Positions 21,394 through 64,000 of a stretch of 64,000 bases of DNA are shown in pieces. A program made the position numbers and the translations under genes. Origin of the DNA: Nostoc sp. LEGE 12450. GTDB taxonomy: Bacteria > Cyanobacteriota > Cyanobacteriia > Cyanobacteriales > Nostocaceae. The stretch spans positions 1-64,000 of the forward strand of contig NZ_JADEXU010000019.1 of the NCBI RefSeq assembly GCF_015206895.1. The letters run 5' to 3'. Position 1 is the first letter of the stretch. Each line of letters begins with the position of its first letter. A model generated the notes under the pieces. That model had not been told where the DNA came from. It was given only the letters and a program-made list of their open reading frames with translations, and searched no databases.

Positions 21394-21394
21394 A

Positions 21395-21494
21395 TTAGTC
21401 ATTGGTCATTAGTCATTGGTCATTAGCAAATGACAAATGACAAATGACTAATGACTAATGACAACTGACAAAGGACAACTGACAAAGGACAACT
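21395..21494. repeat. Tandem heptad repeat array
   Basis: About fourteen 7-nt units between purA and rplY. GTCATTG/GTCATTA units come first, then the inverse ATGACAA/ATGACTA units, then GGACAAC/TGACAAA variants up to the rplY leader. The two orientations could form a hairpin. Confidence 0.8.
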
Positions 21495-32851: not shown

Positions 32852-32870
32852 GGTGCATCTCTTTTTACAT

Positions 32871-32954
32871 TGGGAATTGGGAATGGGGAATTGGGAATGG
32901 GGAATTGGGAATGGGGAATTGGGAATTGGGAATTGGGAATTGGGAATGAGGAAT
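32871..32954. repeat. Twelve-unit heptad repeat
   Basis: Exactly twelve consecutive 7-nt units: TGGGAAT (8 copies), GGGGAAT (3) and GAGGAAT (1). It lies just upstream of the ssuD start codon and so probably in its leader or promoter. Confidence 0.9.
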
Positions 32955-33612
32955 TGTTCTCCATTTACCCTTTCTACTTAAATAGTTGGAGGTAAGAAGA
33001 CATAGTGAAATTTCTGTTTCGGAATATTCTTTTTTCCAATACTTTTAATAACAGATCCTTGCCTGCACCAACCAGATTAAGAGCAAATTTTTTACATACA
33101 AGTTGGGCAGGTTTACTCTTAGAGTAATCGCTATACATTGACCCGAATAGCGTTAATTAATAAGCTATGAAGGGATTTGATTGAGTGTTGTGGCAATAAA
33201 AATAATAACTTTTTGAACTGGATCAACAACTTTTTTACTACTCCTTTGATTAAAGAAAAGATAAGAATGAGAGTCTAAAAGTAAACTCTAGAACTCTCGT
33301 TCTTACCACTCACTAGGGATTTTCAAGGATAGATCAGGCAATCTTGTGAAGTAATCTCACAATAATTCGTTGGATAGGTTTATTGTGCAGTTTTTTAGCT
33401 GTGATATTGATTTCCGTAAATACGGCAAGTCGGTCGGATAACCGTTGAATTAACTACAAGCAAAAATTATCACATACAAATTAAAAAAGCAATGGGCTAG
33501 CCTTTTCAAAGTGAGTAAAATTTTGGTCAATAAATTCCTCTTTCAGCTCTATACTCTGTGTCCTCTGCGCGGCAGTCGCTCATGGGGGAAACCCCCAAGA
33601 CCGCGCTGCCTT

Positions 33613-33749: not shown

Positions 33750-35417
33750 TCAAAAGGGCGTAATTGCTTTTAAATACAAGGTTTTTTTTAACTGTGGATG
33801 CTCAAAATGAAGTTCTCTAGCGTGTAGATGTAAGCGACTGGTAACTGCATCGCATCCATAAAGGCGATCGCCCAAAATAGTTATCCCAAGTCCTCGTACA
33901 TCAGCTGCATGAACCCTCAATTGATGGGTGCGTCCTGTTAGCGGCGTAAATTCTAAGCGGGTGTAATCTTGTTCTCTCGATATTACTTGGAATTGTGTCA
34001 AGCTGGGTTTACCGTTTTGCCAATCAACTTTTTGATAAGGGCGATTTTCAGGATCTCCCCATAATGGCAAGTCAATTACACCTTGTTCAGCGATCGCAAC
34101 ACCTGAAAGTATGGCTTCATAAACCTTGTGAACTTGACGTTGCTGAAACTGCTGGCTAAGTTGCCGATGAGTTTGGCGATCGCGTGCTAACAACAAAATC
34201 CCAGAAGTTTCCTGATCTAGGCGATGCACAGATGCAAGCGCCATGCCATCTGGTAACAGATGACGTAAGCGGCTCAAAACACTATCTTGGCGATCGCGAT
34301 AACGTCCAGGTACGGAAAGTAACCCAGCAGGTTTGTTTACCGCAATTAACCATTCGTCTTCATAAATAATCGGTAAAGTGACATCTCCCCCTTCCCTTGC
34401 AGGGAAGGGGGCTGGGGGGTTAGGTTTCAAACCAGATAGCAAAAACCCCATCAATGGCTGACATCGTTCGATACACGCTCCATAAAATTCTCCCGGAATT
34501 TTATCCTGATTTACTGAAGACGCACCCCACCAAAACTCTGCCATTGCCAGTGGTTTTAAATTATGTGTTGCCGCATAATGCAGTAATTTTGGGGCACAAC
34601 AATCACCTGTGCCAGTAGGCGAACCTCCTGGTATCAATTGCTGTAATGATAGCGATCGCCCGGAAAAATTAGTCAGGCTGTAGCTAGCGTGCATCTGAGC
34701 TTGTAATTGACGGGATAGGGCTTTACGCTGTTGTTTCAATTCACTGATTCGCGCATCCGTTGCTGCAATTAACTGCTGGAGAGGCTGTAATACTTCATTT
34801 TGCTGGCGTTTAAGTTGTCGTCGCTCAATTCCTTGCTGACGACTTTCTTCGTCGAGTTGTTCAAGGGCGATCGCGAGTGCTTCTGGAGGGAGTGTATTGC
34901 AGATTTGTTGACGTTTTTCCTGTCGTTGGTGTTTGCAATGACGATGGCGATCGCTCATTTCTTGCAACTGTCGCTCAAATTCATCAGATAGGGTTTCATA
35001 CTGCTGACGTTCGGTTAGTTGCTTCAAGGTAAGGATTTCCTGTTTAATCGCGTCCAACTCAGCTAAAGTGCGGGCTTCCTCTAAAGCAACTTCGTCCCGT
35101 CCTGGAATTGGTGGAACCCAACCTGTAACCAAACTACAACCATTCAAAAGACCGGAAAAGGCTTTCAATACCCGTTGTTCGCCATTAGGCAGTTCAACCA
35201 ACAGTATTCCATACATCTTACCTTCACGAGAATAACAGTCATTCTTTGCAAGTTGTTGCATTAGTCCGTGAGCGATCGCTTCGGACATTGAGGTGCGGGG
35301 TAATCTTAAGCGCTCGCCACTTTGGAGACAACGCCCTTCGTACCAATAACTCGGAGATAAATCTCTGACAGCAAAATCGGAGTCGATGAAATCTGAAAGT
35401 GCGTGCAGAACTACCAT
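33750..35417 (-). CDS. RluA-family pseudouridine synthase with long N-terminal extension
   Basis: Large RluA-type enzyme that isomerises uridine in RNA. The C-terminal 210 residues hold the catalytic domain: IIYEDEWLIAVNKPAGLLSVPG, the catalytic Asp in HRLDQETSG (codon at 34215-34217), and LTGRTHQLRVH. The N-terminal 320 residues are an extension with a Gln/Arg-rich coiled coil (about 34700-35080) and no named domain; such extended forms occur in cyanobacteria and some proteobacteria. Between the parts, SGLKPNPPAPFPAREGGDVT is encoded by a dispersed repeat (34385-34426) inserted in frame. Start at Met10 of the open frame is preferred; 35444 is an alternative. Confidence 0.82.
   Translation of the reverse strand: MVVLHALSDFIDSDFAVRDLSPSYWYEGRCLQSGERLRLPRTSMSEAIAHGLMQQLAKNDCYSREGKMYGILLVELPNGEQRVLKAFSGLLNGCSLVTGWVPPIPGRDEVALEEARTLAELDAIKQEILTLKQLTERQQYETLSDEFERQLQEMSDRHRHCKHQRQEKRQQICNTLPPEALAIALEQLDEESRQQGIERRQLKRQQNEVLQPLQQLIAATDARISELKQQRKALSRQLQAQMHASYSLTNFSGRSLSLQQLIPGGSPTGTGDCCAPKLLHYAATHNLKPLAMAEFWWGASSVNQDKIPGEFYGACIERCQPLMGFLLSGLKPNPPAPFPAREGGDVTLPIIYEDEWLIAVNKPAGLLSVPGRYRDRQDSVLSRLRHLLPDGMALASVHRLDQETSGILLLARDRQTHRQLSQQFQQRQVHKVYEAILSGVAIAEQGVIDLPLWGDPENRPYQKVDWQNGKPSLTQFQVISREQDYTRLEFTPLTGRTHQLRVHAADVRGLGITILGDRLYGCDAVTSRLHLHARELHFEHPQLKKTLYLKAITPF
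34385..34426. repeat. Dispersed repeat in frame in pseudouridine synthase
   Basis: CCCCCTTCCCTTGCAGGGAA followed by GGGGGCTGGGGGGTTAGGT. A near-identical unit lies inside cobG at 63117-63150. Encodes NPPAPFPAREGG on the minus strand. Confidence 0.75.
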
Positions 35418-35596
35418 ACAAAGTATGATTGCAAATTTAGCCAATCCTAATATTTTAAATTATTGCTTTCACTAAAATGTATTACGAGTCGTGATGCGTA
35501 AAGAGTAAGTGCGATCGCCCTAATTTGTAGTATTTATTAGTTGTTATTCAGTAACATCTATTTGAGCGATCGCAGCTAGAAATTCAACCTTGAATG

Positions 35597-49357: not shown

Positions 49358-49366
49358 TTATTAGGC

Positions 49367-49438
49367 AAGAGGCAATAGGCAATAGGCAATAGAGGTTTTC
49401 CCAATGCCCAATGCCCAATGCCCAATTACCAATTCCCA
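49367..49438. repeat. GGCAATA and CCCAATG heptad repeats
   Basis: GGCAATA units (49374-49392) are followed by CCCAATG units (49400-49425) between rlpA and panC/cmk. The frame stays open from here into panC/cmk, which would add a false N-terminus. Confidence 0.8.
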
Positions 49439-49536
49439 GTTCCGTATCACTTAATTCCCCTAGTTCAATCAACTCTTCCCTCTGTTTCAGATATAAACTA
49501 ACGGGGGAGGGATCGATAAGAACTAGGGGTATTTTT

Positions 49537-60826: not shown

Positions 60827-61534
60827 TTATAGTCGATTCTTAGTTGGGATCACAATCATTGAGAAATAGGGTACTTTATCTGGATCAACTTCATCCAAGG
60901 GTATGATGCGTTGCTGTGATGTTGATGCCCGCTCAATATATCTTGCCCGTGATGCTAGCCCTAATTTATGCAGAATATCTCGTACTTTAGTAAAGTGACG
61001 ACCTAGCTTCATAATTGCTGCTGCATCAGTCATCAACAAATGTGTAGTCAGTTCTTCTGCTGGCAATGGGGCGGGTAAGACTGTGAGAATATCGGTGTAG
61101 TAGGTGAAAGGTATACCCAAGGCTACCGGACAAGCCATCAGCGAGGAAACTCCGGGGATAACTTCTGTTGGGTACTCTTCAGATAACCGCGTGAAAACGT
61201 ACATGAATGAACCATAGAAAAATGGATCTCCCTCGCATAGCACCACCACATCTCGACCTGCGGCTAAATGGTCGGCGATTGGTTGAATTTCGTTGTCATA
61301 AATAGACTTGGCCTTTTCTGGTTCTAAAGCGCGGGGGAGATGAAACAACACCTCGATTTGATTACCAGGAAGATATTGCGCCACGATCGCTCTAGCAACA
61401 CTTTCTTTATCTGTGGCTGATTGATAAGCTACCACAGGAGCCGCACGTAATAGCCGCAATGCTTTCAGAGTCAATAATTCGGGATCGCCGGGGCCTACAC
61501 CAATTCCATAGAGACGACCTTTGATTTTGCTCAT
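60827..61534 (-). CDS. cobI: Precorrin-2 C20-methyltransferase
   Basis: 235-residue SAM-dependent tetrapyrrole methyltransferase that methylates C20 of precorrin-2 on the way to cobalamin. Seen: the N-terminal GRLYGIGVGPGDPELLTLKAL, the SAM loop VVVLCEGDPFFYGSFMYV, and IPGVSSLMACPVALGIPF, which are specific to CobI/CbiL. Its ATG overlaps the cobH stop by one base (ATGA), so the two are translationally coupled. Last gene of the cobG-cobH-cobI series. Confidence 0.93.
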   Translation of the reverse strand: MSKIKGRLYGIGVGPGDPELLTLKALRLLRAAPVVAYQSATDKESVARAIVAQYLPGNQIEVLFHLPRALEPEKAKSIYDNEIQPIADHLAAGRDVVVLCEGDPFFYGSFMYVFTRLSEEYPTEVIPGVSSLMACPVALGIPFTYYTDILTVLPAPLPAEELTTHLLMTDAAAIMKLGRHFTKVRDILHKLGLASRARYIERASTSQQRIIPLDEVDPDKVPYFSMIVIPTKNRL

Positions 61535-62163
61535 TATTCTTCCTCCGTTGCCAGGGCGTTAACTGCGGCGGCTGCGATCGCACTTCCACCGCGCCGACCG
61601 TGTAATGTTAAAAATGGTACATTCCTGCTATCTGCTGCCAGCGCCACTTTCGATTCGGCTGCACCGACAAATCCCACTGGAAAGCCTAAGATAATCGCAG
61701 GTTTGTTAGCTCCCTCATCGAGCATTTCTAAGAGTCTGAATAGTGCTGTGGGCGCATTACCAATTGCAATTACCGATCCCCCCAGGTGCGATCGCCATAA
61801 TTCCAAGGCTGCTGCCGACCTTGTAGTACCCAGACGCTTGGCCATTTCTGGGACTTCCGGCTCGTTGAGGGTACAGATAACTTGATTGTTTGCAGATAAC
61901 CGCCGCCTGGTAACGCCATCAGCAACCATCCGGCAATCGCATAAGATTGGCGCTCCTGCTGCTAGCGCTGCCCTTGCGGATTGCACTGCTGTTGGTGAAT
62001 ATCCCAAGTCAGTAACAATATCCGTCATCCCACAGGCATGAATGAGACGCACGGCAACTTTTGCTACATCTGGTGGCAGCACATCTAGGTTTGCTTCTGA
62101 CCGGATGATTGCAAAAGAATTACGGTAAATTTCGTTGGCATCTCGGATATAGTCATTTGTCAT
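61534..62163 (-). CDS. cobH: Precorrin-8X methylmutase
   Basis: 209-residue CobH/CbiC enzyme that moves a methyl group from C11 to C12 of the corrin ring. Characteristic parts are RLIHACGMTDIVTDLGYSP (with the catalytic His), ILCDCRMVADGVTRRRL, and AIILGFPVGFVGAAESKVAL. It lies 94 nt after cobG, with heptad repeats and a family 1 repeat fragment between, and overlaps cobI by one base. Confidence 0.93.
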   Translation of the reverse strand: MTNDYIRDANEIYRNSFAIIRSEANLDVLPPDVAKVAVRLIHACGMTDIVTDLGYSPTAVQSARAALAAGAPILCDCRMVADGVTRRRLSANNQVICTLNEPEVPEMAKRLGTTRSAAALELWRSHLGGSVIAIGNAPTALFRLLEMLDEGANKPAIILGFPVGFVGAAESKVALAADSRNVPFLTLHGRRGGSAIAAAAVNALATEEE

Positions 62164-62257: not shown

Positions 62258-63883
62258 TCACAGTTGCAATTGAGCGATCGCACATCGATTGCTAAATTCC
62301 CTGAAGGATTCATCGAGATTCAAGCGTTGAATTTTATATACATCTAGCATCCGCTTTATTAATGCAGGTAGTTCCGCAAAAGTCACATATTGATATATTT
62401 GCCGTCCAAATTTATGCTCGTTGTCACCAACATAAACGTGATAGCCTTCTACAGTTCTATTGCCATCCTCAATGCTGACACCGAGCAAAGTAATATCACT
62501 CTTGCTATGCTGGGCGCAGGATTTTTCGCAGCCAGTAAAGTGGATATTAACTGGGCAATCCAGAGTAACGCGAGTTTCAAGATACTCTGCTAATGCCAAC
62601 GCATGACTTTTGGTGTCCGTAGCAGAAGAGGCACAACCTTTGTTTCCAGAACAGGCAATTAACGCACTCTTTATATTAGTTGCTGAGGTATCTAATCCTA
62701 AGAAAGCAATTTTACTTTGGACATCACCAACCCATTGCTGAGGAATATCTGTTAGCAGCAAATTTTGCCAGGGGGTTAACCGAAGAGTGCCACTACCATA
62801 TTTTGCTGCTAAATCTGCCAAACCCTTCATCTGCTTAGTCTCCAACCGTCCAAGAGGTAACACCGCACCAATGTAAAATAAGCCTTGCTGACGTTGGGGA
62901 TGCATGCCAATATGCTGATATTTAGCATCTGACCGCTCCCCCAACCCCTCTCCTGCAAGGCTACCGTGTACACACAAATCGGAGTTACTTTGAGATCCGG
63001 GTTTTACCCCCCTTAATCCCCCCTTTCCAAGGGGGGAAAGAAAATCTAGTTCCCTCCCCTTTCCAAGGGGAGGGTTAGGGTGGGGTAATTCGATAACTTG
63101 TGTGTACACCGTAGCTTTCCCTGGTAGGGAAGGGGGTTGGGGGGTTAGGTCACTGCATAAAAGAGGGAAAGGTAAGCGCTGCTGAACTTCTTGGAGATAA
63201 TTTTCACAACCCAAAGTATTCAATAACTCTAAGAGACGTAACCGACGCTTATTTGTAGTATTAGTATGAGCTAGATAGACCTCTGTTAAAGCTGCTAAGA
63301 CGGGTAAACATTGCTCTGGTGTTAACAAAATCCCCGTATCGCTAGGCGGTTGACCCTTTGCCCCGACACTGAGATAAAGACGGAAGTAAACATCAGCATC
63401 GACTAAGACAGCAGCAAATAGGATATCATTCAAGCGATCGCACACCCGAATAATTCCACCACCATCAAAACAAACGCTAAATTTTGCCGAGAGTCCTGAA
63501 AGCACCGGATGTGCGGCAATATAATTATCCCAACCTTGGACAAAAGGGCGGGTGTCGATTAATTCTTGCGGGTCAATACCAGCAGTTGGGCTGGTCATAA
63601 TATTACGGATGTGGTCTACAACCGAATTGCGAGAACCCAATCCCATATCCTGTAAATGCTGCAAAACCTCACTATTGATCCCCGTGCGAATTTCGCGGAC
63701 TTGTAGGTTAGCTCGATTAGTGACATCAACATAGCCACCACCATGCTGGTCTGCTATATCTGCGATCGCACGGCACTGCTGACTACTAATAATTCCGCCT
63801 GGTATTCTAATGCGAGATAATATACCATCGGCGGCGGGTGTAGCATAAAACAAGCCAGGACAAGTGGCAAATCCAGAAAGCAA
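62258..63883 (-). CDS. cobG: Precorrin-3B synthase with repeat insertion
   Basis: CobG-type monooxygenase with two ferredoxin-like half-domains and a siroheme/4Fe-4S site, related to nitrite/sulfite reductase. It makes precorrin-3B by ring contraction chemistry. Seen: FATCPGLFYATPAADGILSRIRIPGG, GGGYVDVTNRANLQVR, LTPWQNLLLTD, ACSGNKGCASSATDT and IHFTGCEKSCAQHSKSDITLLG, with the four FeS Cys. The frame is open to the window edge, but that part is riboswitch, so I place the start at TTG 63883, with GGAAGGAG 8 nt upstream. About 75 codons (62929-63152) are composite repeat DNA without a stop. Confidence 0.88.
   Translation of the reverse strand: MLSGFATCPGLFYATPAADGILSRIRIPGGIISSQQCRAIADIADQHGGGYVDVTNRANLQVREIRTGINSEVLQHLQDMGLGSRNSVVDHIRNIMTSPTAGIDPQELIDTRPFVQGWDNYIAAHPVLSGLSAKFSVCFDGGGIIRVCDRLNDILFAAVLVDADVYFRLYLSVGAKGQPPSDTGILLTPEQCLPVLAALTEVYLAHTNTTNKRRLRLLELLNTLGCENYLQEVQQRLPFPLLCSDLTPQPPSLPGKATVYTQVIELPHPNPPLGKGRELDFLSPLGKGGLRGVKPGSQSNSDLCVHGSLAGEGLGERSDAKYQHIGMHPQRQQGLFYIGAVLPLGRLETKQMKGLADLAAKYGSGTLRLTPWQNLLLTDIPQQWVGDVQSKIAFLGLDTSATNIKSALIACSGNKGCASSATDTKSHALALAEYLETRVTLDCPVNIHFTGCEKSCAQHSKSDITLLGVSIEDGNRTVEGYHVYVGDNEHKFGRQIYQYVTFAELPALIKRMLDVYKIQRLNLDESFREFSNRCAIAQLQL
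62929..63152. repeat. Nested composite repeat inside cobG
   Basis: Outer unit: CCGCTCCCCCAACCCCTC on the left and GGAAGGGGGTTGGGGGGTTA on the right, alike in type to the repeat in the pseudouridine synthase gene. Inside it lies an element with 18-nt terminal inverted repeats, GCTACCGTGTACACACAA (62960-62977) and TTGTGTGTACACCGTAGC (63098-63115), one mismatch. Inside that lie two CCTTTCCAAGGGG-type units. All are in frame. Confidence 0.82.
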
Positions 63884-63891
63884 ACTTGGAA

Positions 63892-64000
63892 CTCCTTCCC
63901 CGTGCAACGCAGGGAGTAGATGGTGAGTGTGACATCTTGAGAGTTGGCATTCTGACTTGGGTGATCCCATCACAGCTGCGGCACAGTCCCGGAATTTCAC
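63892..64000 (-). promoter_or_regulatory. Cobalamin riboswitch, 3' part
   Basis: Minus strand from 64000: GTGAAATTCCGGGACTGTGC, CGCAGCTGTGATGGG, then the B12 box AAGTCAGAATGCC, all close to the AdoCbl riboswitch consensus. The following ACTCC...GGAGT can pair to hide the GGAAGGAG ribosome binding site of cobG, which suggests translational control. The 5' half lies outside the window. Confidence 0.82.

Follow-up and report, generated by a model that had tools for sequence, protein, structure and literature searches.

The question raised by this locus is how a metabolic gene can carry mobile repeats, one inside another, in the middle of its reading frame, and whether the protein encoded across them still works. 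The gene encodes precorrin-3B synthase (cobG) and lies at the end of a 64,000-nucleotide stretch of DNA from Nostoc sp. LEGE 12450, the whole of which we call the window. We regard it as highly probable that CobG is an active enzyme with a long disordered linker, which was seeded by one repeat, hit by a MITE and kept under frame selection without acquiring a new function.

The cobG gene and the anatomy of its hinge

The cobG open frame lies on the minus strand (62258..64000), encodes 580 amino acids without a stop codon and runs beyond the end of the window; the contig holds an open frame of 590 codons, so that any start assigned to the gene is provisional. Its product scored 352.2 bits against the curated model TIGR02435 (cut-off 234.8) and contains both NIR/SIR domain types, arranged as two half repeats. 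Four cysteine columns (421, 427, 462 and 466 of alignment A1), which we take to be iron-sulfur/siroheme ligands, are invariant in 53/53 aligned CobG proteins, the alignment covering 53 of the 91 distinct genes collected. The genome holds a single match at the level of CobG, the next long match, on contig 163, being a paralogue with 31-32% identity. Two genes oriented like cobG follow it downstream, a cobH-like precorrin-8X methylmutase gene (61534..62163, minus strand; NF006136, 354.1 bits, cut-off 276) and a cobI-like precorrin-2 C20-methyltransferase gene (60827..61534, minus strand; NF004647, 281.2 bits, cut-off 271). As separate observations, the CobG of genome G002 (L140) lies within an 827-codon open frame, longer than the other CobG frames listed, and the window holds heptamer tandem repeats at 32869-32956, 21394-21492 and 49362-49443 (for example ATTGGGA repeated 12.6 times).

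The two NIR/SIR halves are separated by a Pro/Gly/Leu-rich, stop-free hinge of 261 bp, or 87 codons (62924..63184, minus strand), measured from the anchor GCENYLQEV to the anchor KYQHIG. As a single strand the hinge folds into concentric hairpins with -122.1 kcal/mol, compared with -89.7 +/- 5.3 kcal/mol for shuffled sequences (z -6.1), and 0/200 shuffles were equally stable. An earlier note on this DNA had described an open frame running through a Pro/Gly/Leu-rich stretch with nested inverted repeats between the two catalytic parts of CobG, and all of this holds, the repeats being real multi-copy families. Its boundaries for the insert (62929-63152) do not: they enclose 224 bp, which is not a multiple of 3, and their removal would shorten the 261-bp hinge to 37 bp and break the frame, instead of giving the clean join of the flanks that had been predicted.

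Repeat-derived DNA occupies about 62930-63149 and is built in layers. Layer 1 is an 85-bp double-hairpin repeat whose complete form occurs in relatives (L020 and L021, for example), and in the window it is split into a 5' part with the outer arm and hairpin 1 (63115..63149, minus strand) and a 3' part with the remnant of hairpin 2 and the other outer arm (62930..62960, minus strand). Between them, inserted into layer 1, lies layer 2, a Tn5/IS50-like MITE of 154 bp (62961..63114, minus strand) bounded by the 19-bp terminal inverted repeat CTACGGTGTACACACAAGT (63096..63114, minus strand) and by its counterpart (62961..62979, minus strand), which has two mismatches in the 15-base core. Within the MITE lies layer 3, a further member of the layer-1 family of double-hairpin repeats (63007..63088, plus strand; covariance model 47.2 bits, E 2.8e-10), with hairpins at 63052-63074 and 63018-63036. 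The window MITE is flanked by hairpin 1 at one end and by hairpin 2 at the opposite end, and it lacks a matching target duplication (4/11), so its history has to be inferred from relatives.

These unequal flanks, in a draft assembly of 415 contigs, would fit an assembly artefact at repeats, a possibility that the earlier note had allowed for. We consider this hardly credible, because comparable insertions flanked by duplications occur in genomes assembled independently (Desmonostoc muscorum FACHB-395, Nostoc sp. KVJ20 and others) and because the 30-bp deletion that we propose below for the window strain keeps the frame.

The Tn5-like MITE and its palindromic targets

We made a covariance model of the layer-1 family from 15 copies and, at a threshold of E <= 0.01, found 72 strand-wise matches in the window's genome, corresponding to 50 distinct places, since the repeat is palindromic and is often matched on both strands. 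A literature search that covered few subscription journals returned no account of this repeat family in Nostoc genes, nor of repeats in cobG.

The MITE end is likewise a dispersed element, with 35 sites in the genome at no more than one mismatch and 0 for the reversed pattern. The end pairs collected, among them nested ones, extend over 100-354 bp and differ in their interiors, and the form with exact ends and a core of 95-125 bp was found in 19/53 genomes of the genus. On visual inspection, 28/31 listed MITE copies contain the C/G-rich double hairpin seen in layer 3, and layer 3 therefore most likely arrived together with layer 2. On this comparison of copies, the three layers need not represent three hits on cobG, and the three successive insertions into the gene proposed in the earlier note are not borne out.

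Its end sequence and a related transposase connect the MITE with the IS50 (Tn5) subgroup of the IS4 family. By eye, CTACGGTGTACACACAAGT fits 7/7 specified positions of the subgroup end consensus CW------Y---CA-A--W-, which is given together with direct repeats of 8-9 bp in the available text of PMC2266710. Counted from CTAC, perfect duplications in the flanks are most often 10-11 bp long (7 at 10 bp, 6 at 11 bp and 1 at 9 bp, among 46 end pairs in which some ends occur in more than one pair, and less than 1% for mismatched pairs), and they equal 8-9 bp if the ends are taken as GCTAC/GTAGC. Between such ends, a relative (genome G017, locus L190) carries a 474-codon Tn5-like open frame with PF14706, PF02281 and PF01609, that is, with Tn5-type DNA-binding, DDE and Tn5 dimerisation domains; the L190 ends have several mismatches and their flanks no clear duplication. 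Fragments also adjoin such ends in L188 and L214. A profile search with PF14706, the Tn5-type DNA-binding domain, gave 0 matches in the window's draft genome (G000) and matches in 23/59 genomes searched. The Nostoc element differs from IS50 in being non-autonomous and 154 bp long, and its duplications, 10-11 bp from CTAC or 8-9 bp from GCTAC, compare with 8-9 bp in the portion of PMC2266710 consulted. A TA-duplicating (IS630-type) MITE, suggested by the TA beside the ends, was rejected in view of duplications 10-11 bp long and a transposase of Tn5 type.

The positions of the MITE copies also show a bias. We scored the inverted repeat around the insertion point in the flanks of 43 MITE insertions, a set that contains the six CobG copies and in which some entries are nested alternatives of a single element, and 18/43 reached a score of at least 8, compared with 38/2000 random positions of the fetched loci. 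Mismatched flank pairs reached this score in 315/1806 cases (17%), so a common target consensus makes up some of the excess; the remainder is specific pairing of the two flanks. Among the CobG carriers, the window scored 11, L010 9, L011 7 and L012-L014 4-5, against a random mean of 4.8, and the threshold was passed individually by the window and L010 only. For L012-L014 the target is a palindrome only as read, by eye, from MITE-free relatives (L065: CTCCCC...GGGGAG). The MITE thus has a tendency to lie in dispersed palindromes, of which layer 1 in CobG is one, and this bias may be a property of the transposase. The tendency of a Tn5-like MITE to enter palindromes would account for repeats lying within repeats.

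Hinge evolution and selection across CobG relatives

To compare hinges we took CobG from 123 loci, which gave 91 distinct genes after removal of identical ones; the sample draws on 52/53 same-genus genomes, 33/65 same-family genomes and a further 38 loci, many of them with identical genes, and reaches across the family and a few nearby genera. Genome G040 gave no CobG-level match (best E 3.0e-28). Relationships were taken from a FastTree tree of the gene halves, in which supports inside the Nostoc group are partly low, and the names used for L010, L011, L012 and L014 come from identical CobG regions in named contigs. Every one of the 91 hinges is a multiple of codons and free of stops. Hinge length takes 28 values between 20 and 102 codons, and parsimony requires no fewer than 49 changes of length on the tree.

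This regularity bears on whether the hairpins are translated as written. Bypassed elements are expected as concentric hairpins, which is the form the hinge takes, and ribosomes might bypass it, or the hinge might be a break point from which two half-proteins arise through re-initiation. Neither bypass nor two products would need stop-free hinges in codon multiples, and both properties are kept in 91/91 genes, so we judge such a scheme to be extremely unlikely.

Layer 1 is much the more widespread component. The family was detected in 37/91 hinges (E <= 0.01), divided into 33/52 same-genus hinges and 4/39 others, and it occurs in 27/46 same-genus hinges without the MITE; the six MITE carriers are among the 33 positives, their match being mainly layer 3. 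Inspected by eye, the 19 same-genus hinges without a match comprise five with worn copies (L031, L033, L035, L036 and L138), five with a short remnant of the LLPQ type and nine that are seemingly repeat-free. The hinge has a median of 42 codons with a layer-1 match and 24.5 without one. The 54 unmatched hinges range from 20 to 58 codons and are variable in sequence, and this variation leaves no exact empty site for layer 1.

Layers 2 and 3 were found in 6/91 CobG genes, all from the same genus: the window gene, L010 (CobG as in Desmonostoc muscorum FACHB-395), L011 (Nostoc sp. KVJ20), L012 (Nostoc sp. NMS4), L013 and L014 (Nostoc cf. edaphicum LEGE 07299). Whether the same loop occurs elsewhere, a point raised in the earlier note, thus has a divided answer within the family and the few nearby genera sampled, with layers 2 and 3 confined to the genus and the layer-1 family extending beyond it. 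The MITE occupies three positions in the hinge, namely hairpin 1 (L010), hairpin 2 (L011) and a shortened element (L012-L014). L017, the sister of L010, has no MITE, and L013, the sister of L011, has it elsewhere (both supports 1.0). A single ancient insertion of the MITE into CobG was ruled out by these differing sites and by the sister gene without it.

Close relatives supply the target site of the MITE in the hinge, and lengths could be reconstructed from them by hand, with the relative chosen by eye. In 4/6 carriers the hinge equals the relative plus the element and an 11-bp duplication (L010, 105 + 165 bp; L012, 75 + 171; L013, 75 + 177; L014, 75 + 165), and the other two need deletions that are themselves codon multiples (window, 126 + 165 - 30; L011, 138 + 186 - 18). 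The 11-bp target duplications match at 11/11 positions in L011, 10/11 in L010, 9/11 in L012 and L013 and 8/11 in L014.

The window gene (L001) and L010 carry MITE copies that differ at 1/154 bases, against 73 of about 1425 positions (about 5%) in the gene halves. Such near-identical elements between halves diverged by about 5% make separate recent insertions, or exchange of a hinge allele, likelier than shared descent, and a hinge allele may have passed from one strain to another by recombination. In a sliding comparison L010 was nearest to L017 on both sides adjacent to the hinge, which argues against exchange of a long stretch; further along (309-489), L010 is identical to L001 in two 90-column windows. 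By eye, the L010 hinge is nearer to layer 1 of L018 than to that of its sister L017, a hint of hinge-allele exchange that is not repeated in the flanks.

The frame of the carriers is not a property of the element. A codon-multiple design of the MITE was set aside, since only 8/16 of its non-CobG copies in the genome are codon multiples (a 9-bp duplication being assumed), and it follows that the frame in CobG is kept by selection at the site. The idea that all lengths of the repeats kept the frame therefore fails as a statement about the repeats, while the part of the same claim that had them entering an intact gene in frame stands. Any open frame is present in 3/16 non-CobG copies and in 6/6 copies in CobG, these six carriers not being six independent events. 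Nor did we find a general habit of the MITE to sit in frame: 0/38 other copies, four of which lie near contig ends, have at least 60 open codons on both sides, a rate that is not comparable with that in CobG, where copies were sampled through CobG itself.

The CobG halves are still under purifying selection. The dN/dS ratio was 0.127 between L010 and L017 and 0.13-0.24 between the window and L016, L018, L017 and L010, and private changes were 10 synonymous and 6 nonsynonymous in the window gene, 6 and 1 in L010 and 18 and 6 in L011, counts that span whole branches and so include time before the insertion. These data bear on the possibility that the gene is dying, with strong mRNA hairpins blocking expression, or the insert blocking activity, and the frame open by chance. 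The very high stability of the hinge RNA would fit such a course, but in-frame hinge events recur in six carriers, substitutions are still mostly synonymous, and the genome has no second CobG-level match, and we think this outcome very unlikely.

An AlphaFold model based on the 53-protein alignment (mean pLDDT 77.9) shows two folded halves with a low-confidence hinge. Stretches of at least three residues with pLDDT below 50 are limited to model residues 1-20 and 262-329, the latter within the hinge. The best solved matches to the model are plant nitrite reductases, and the sequence alignment of CobG with nitrite reductase breaks at a short linker in the same place as the hinge. The model suggests that the hinge is probably a floppy, disordered linker, and the added surface loop of the earlier note is in that sense probable.

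A loop of this kind could be adaptive, the repeat-derived linker binding a partner or regulating CobG and being retained for that reason. The persistence of the layer-1 family in the 37 hinges, albeit mainly as layer 3 in MITE carriers, is in keeping with such a role. Against it, hinge sequence and length vary freely among close relatives, the hinge is predicted to be disordered, and an unrelated 9-bp tandem repeat, CCCTCATCC, fills part of the L015 hinge, so that we hold an adaptive loop to be unlikely. That repeat encodes an SSP array in the L015 hinge (L015:2260-2565) and is thus a third repeat type grown in the same CobG linker; a short stretch similar to it is present in Amazonocrinis (L060:2936-3151).

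The reading that we favour, a linker built from mobile repeats under frame selection, would unfold as follows. The 85-bp double-hairpin repeat would have entered the CobG linker, or replaced part of it, early in the Nostoc clade, and would have been tolerated because it can be read without stops. Layer 1 would then have served as a landing site for the palindrome-prone Tn5/IS50-like MITE. In the window lineage the MITE would have landed at hairpin 1, and a 30-bp in-frame deletion would have taken away what was left of hairpin 1 together with part of hairpin 2; alternatively, recombination with a hairpin-2 insertion could have produced the 87-codon hinge. The sequence of these events in the strain is reconstructed from its relatives. 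Selection on the enzyme would discard versions that break the frame, so that the linker would change only by multiples of codons. CobG would be translated whole and be working.

In-frame repeats beyond CobG and what they mean

The layer-1 family lies in frame, with at least 60 open codons on each side, in 5/50 places in the genome, CobG (through layer 3) included. The other four are an RluA-like pseudouridine synthase gene, a U32-family gene (L238), a SNF2-type helicase gene (L263) and a worn copy in L301. The RluA-like gene is located in the window (33750..35444, minus strand; PF00849, 118.1 bits; TIGR00005 below its cut-off, 177.5 vs 192.7), and its half element (34352-34424 by the model, with a blast match at 34385-34424) is read in frame as PNPPAPFPAREGG and precedes the catalytic domain. 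The U32-family gene spans L238:637-3084 (PF01136) and the helicase gene L263:2-3034 (PF00176). A further in-frame copy, close to the N-terminal end in an asparagine synthase gene (L242:1396-3081, copy at C149:6746-6832; PF00733), was excluded from the five as too close to the start of the frame.

For the RluA-like and U32 genes we examined the best matches among 59 genomes each, which is not a random sample, and the linker between the anchors lay in one open frame in 30/30 loci of either gene. The repeat peptide motif was present in 17/30 RluA-like loci (PNPPAPFP type) and 16/30 U32 loci (PNPLTPFP type), the rest being different or shortened. The repeat is read in two forward frames, as LTPQPPSL in CobG and as PNPPAPFP in the RluA-like gene.

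Small dispersed mobile repeats occur in Nostocales, and layers 1 and 2 resemble them, and Nezha-type MITEs, by description only. Nezha is named in PMC3733652. By analogy, the nearest precedent for in-frame selfish palindromes is provided by the Rickettsia palindromic elements (RPE) and intragenic REPs, which the consulted parts of PMC10969869 and PMC3733652 describe as multi-copy palindromes lying in frame in unrelated genes and read through. The likeness is one of mode of working, a palindromic repeat family in frame in several unrelated genes. The Nostoc case differs in its host phylum, in that the palindrome inside the gene has itself been hit by a second, Tn5-like element, and in that the insertions are concentrated in one interdomain linker that can be followed across 91 orthologues. 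Insertion sequences that target REP palindromes, such as ISRm22 of the IS4 family (as treated in the accessible portion of PMC1525189), share the insertion into palindromic repeats; REPs are by name extragenic, whereas the target in Nostoc is a palindrome inside a coding linker.

Rickettsia offers the best-known in-frame selfish palindromes, and in-gene REPs have been reported from several other bacteria; here the same outcome occurs in free-living cyanobacteria and in a metabolic enzyme. Insertion into palindromes suggests a mechanism for the nesting of repeats. The stages are alive in relatives, from no repeat through one repeat and a repeat within a repeat to partial deletion, and their preservation makes the acceptance of mobile DNA by a protein directly testable. 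We tentatively propose, while leaning slightly against it for now, that linker building in Nostoc is self-reinforcing: a repeat open in at least two frames would seed linkers, and a palindrome-seeking MITE with its own double hairpin would land on the seed, so that linkers of CobG and of other proteins of the genus would grow while selection preserved the frame. If this is true, each landing of the MITE would bring new hairpins, and linkers could keep growing, repeat on repeat.
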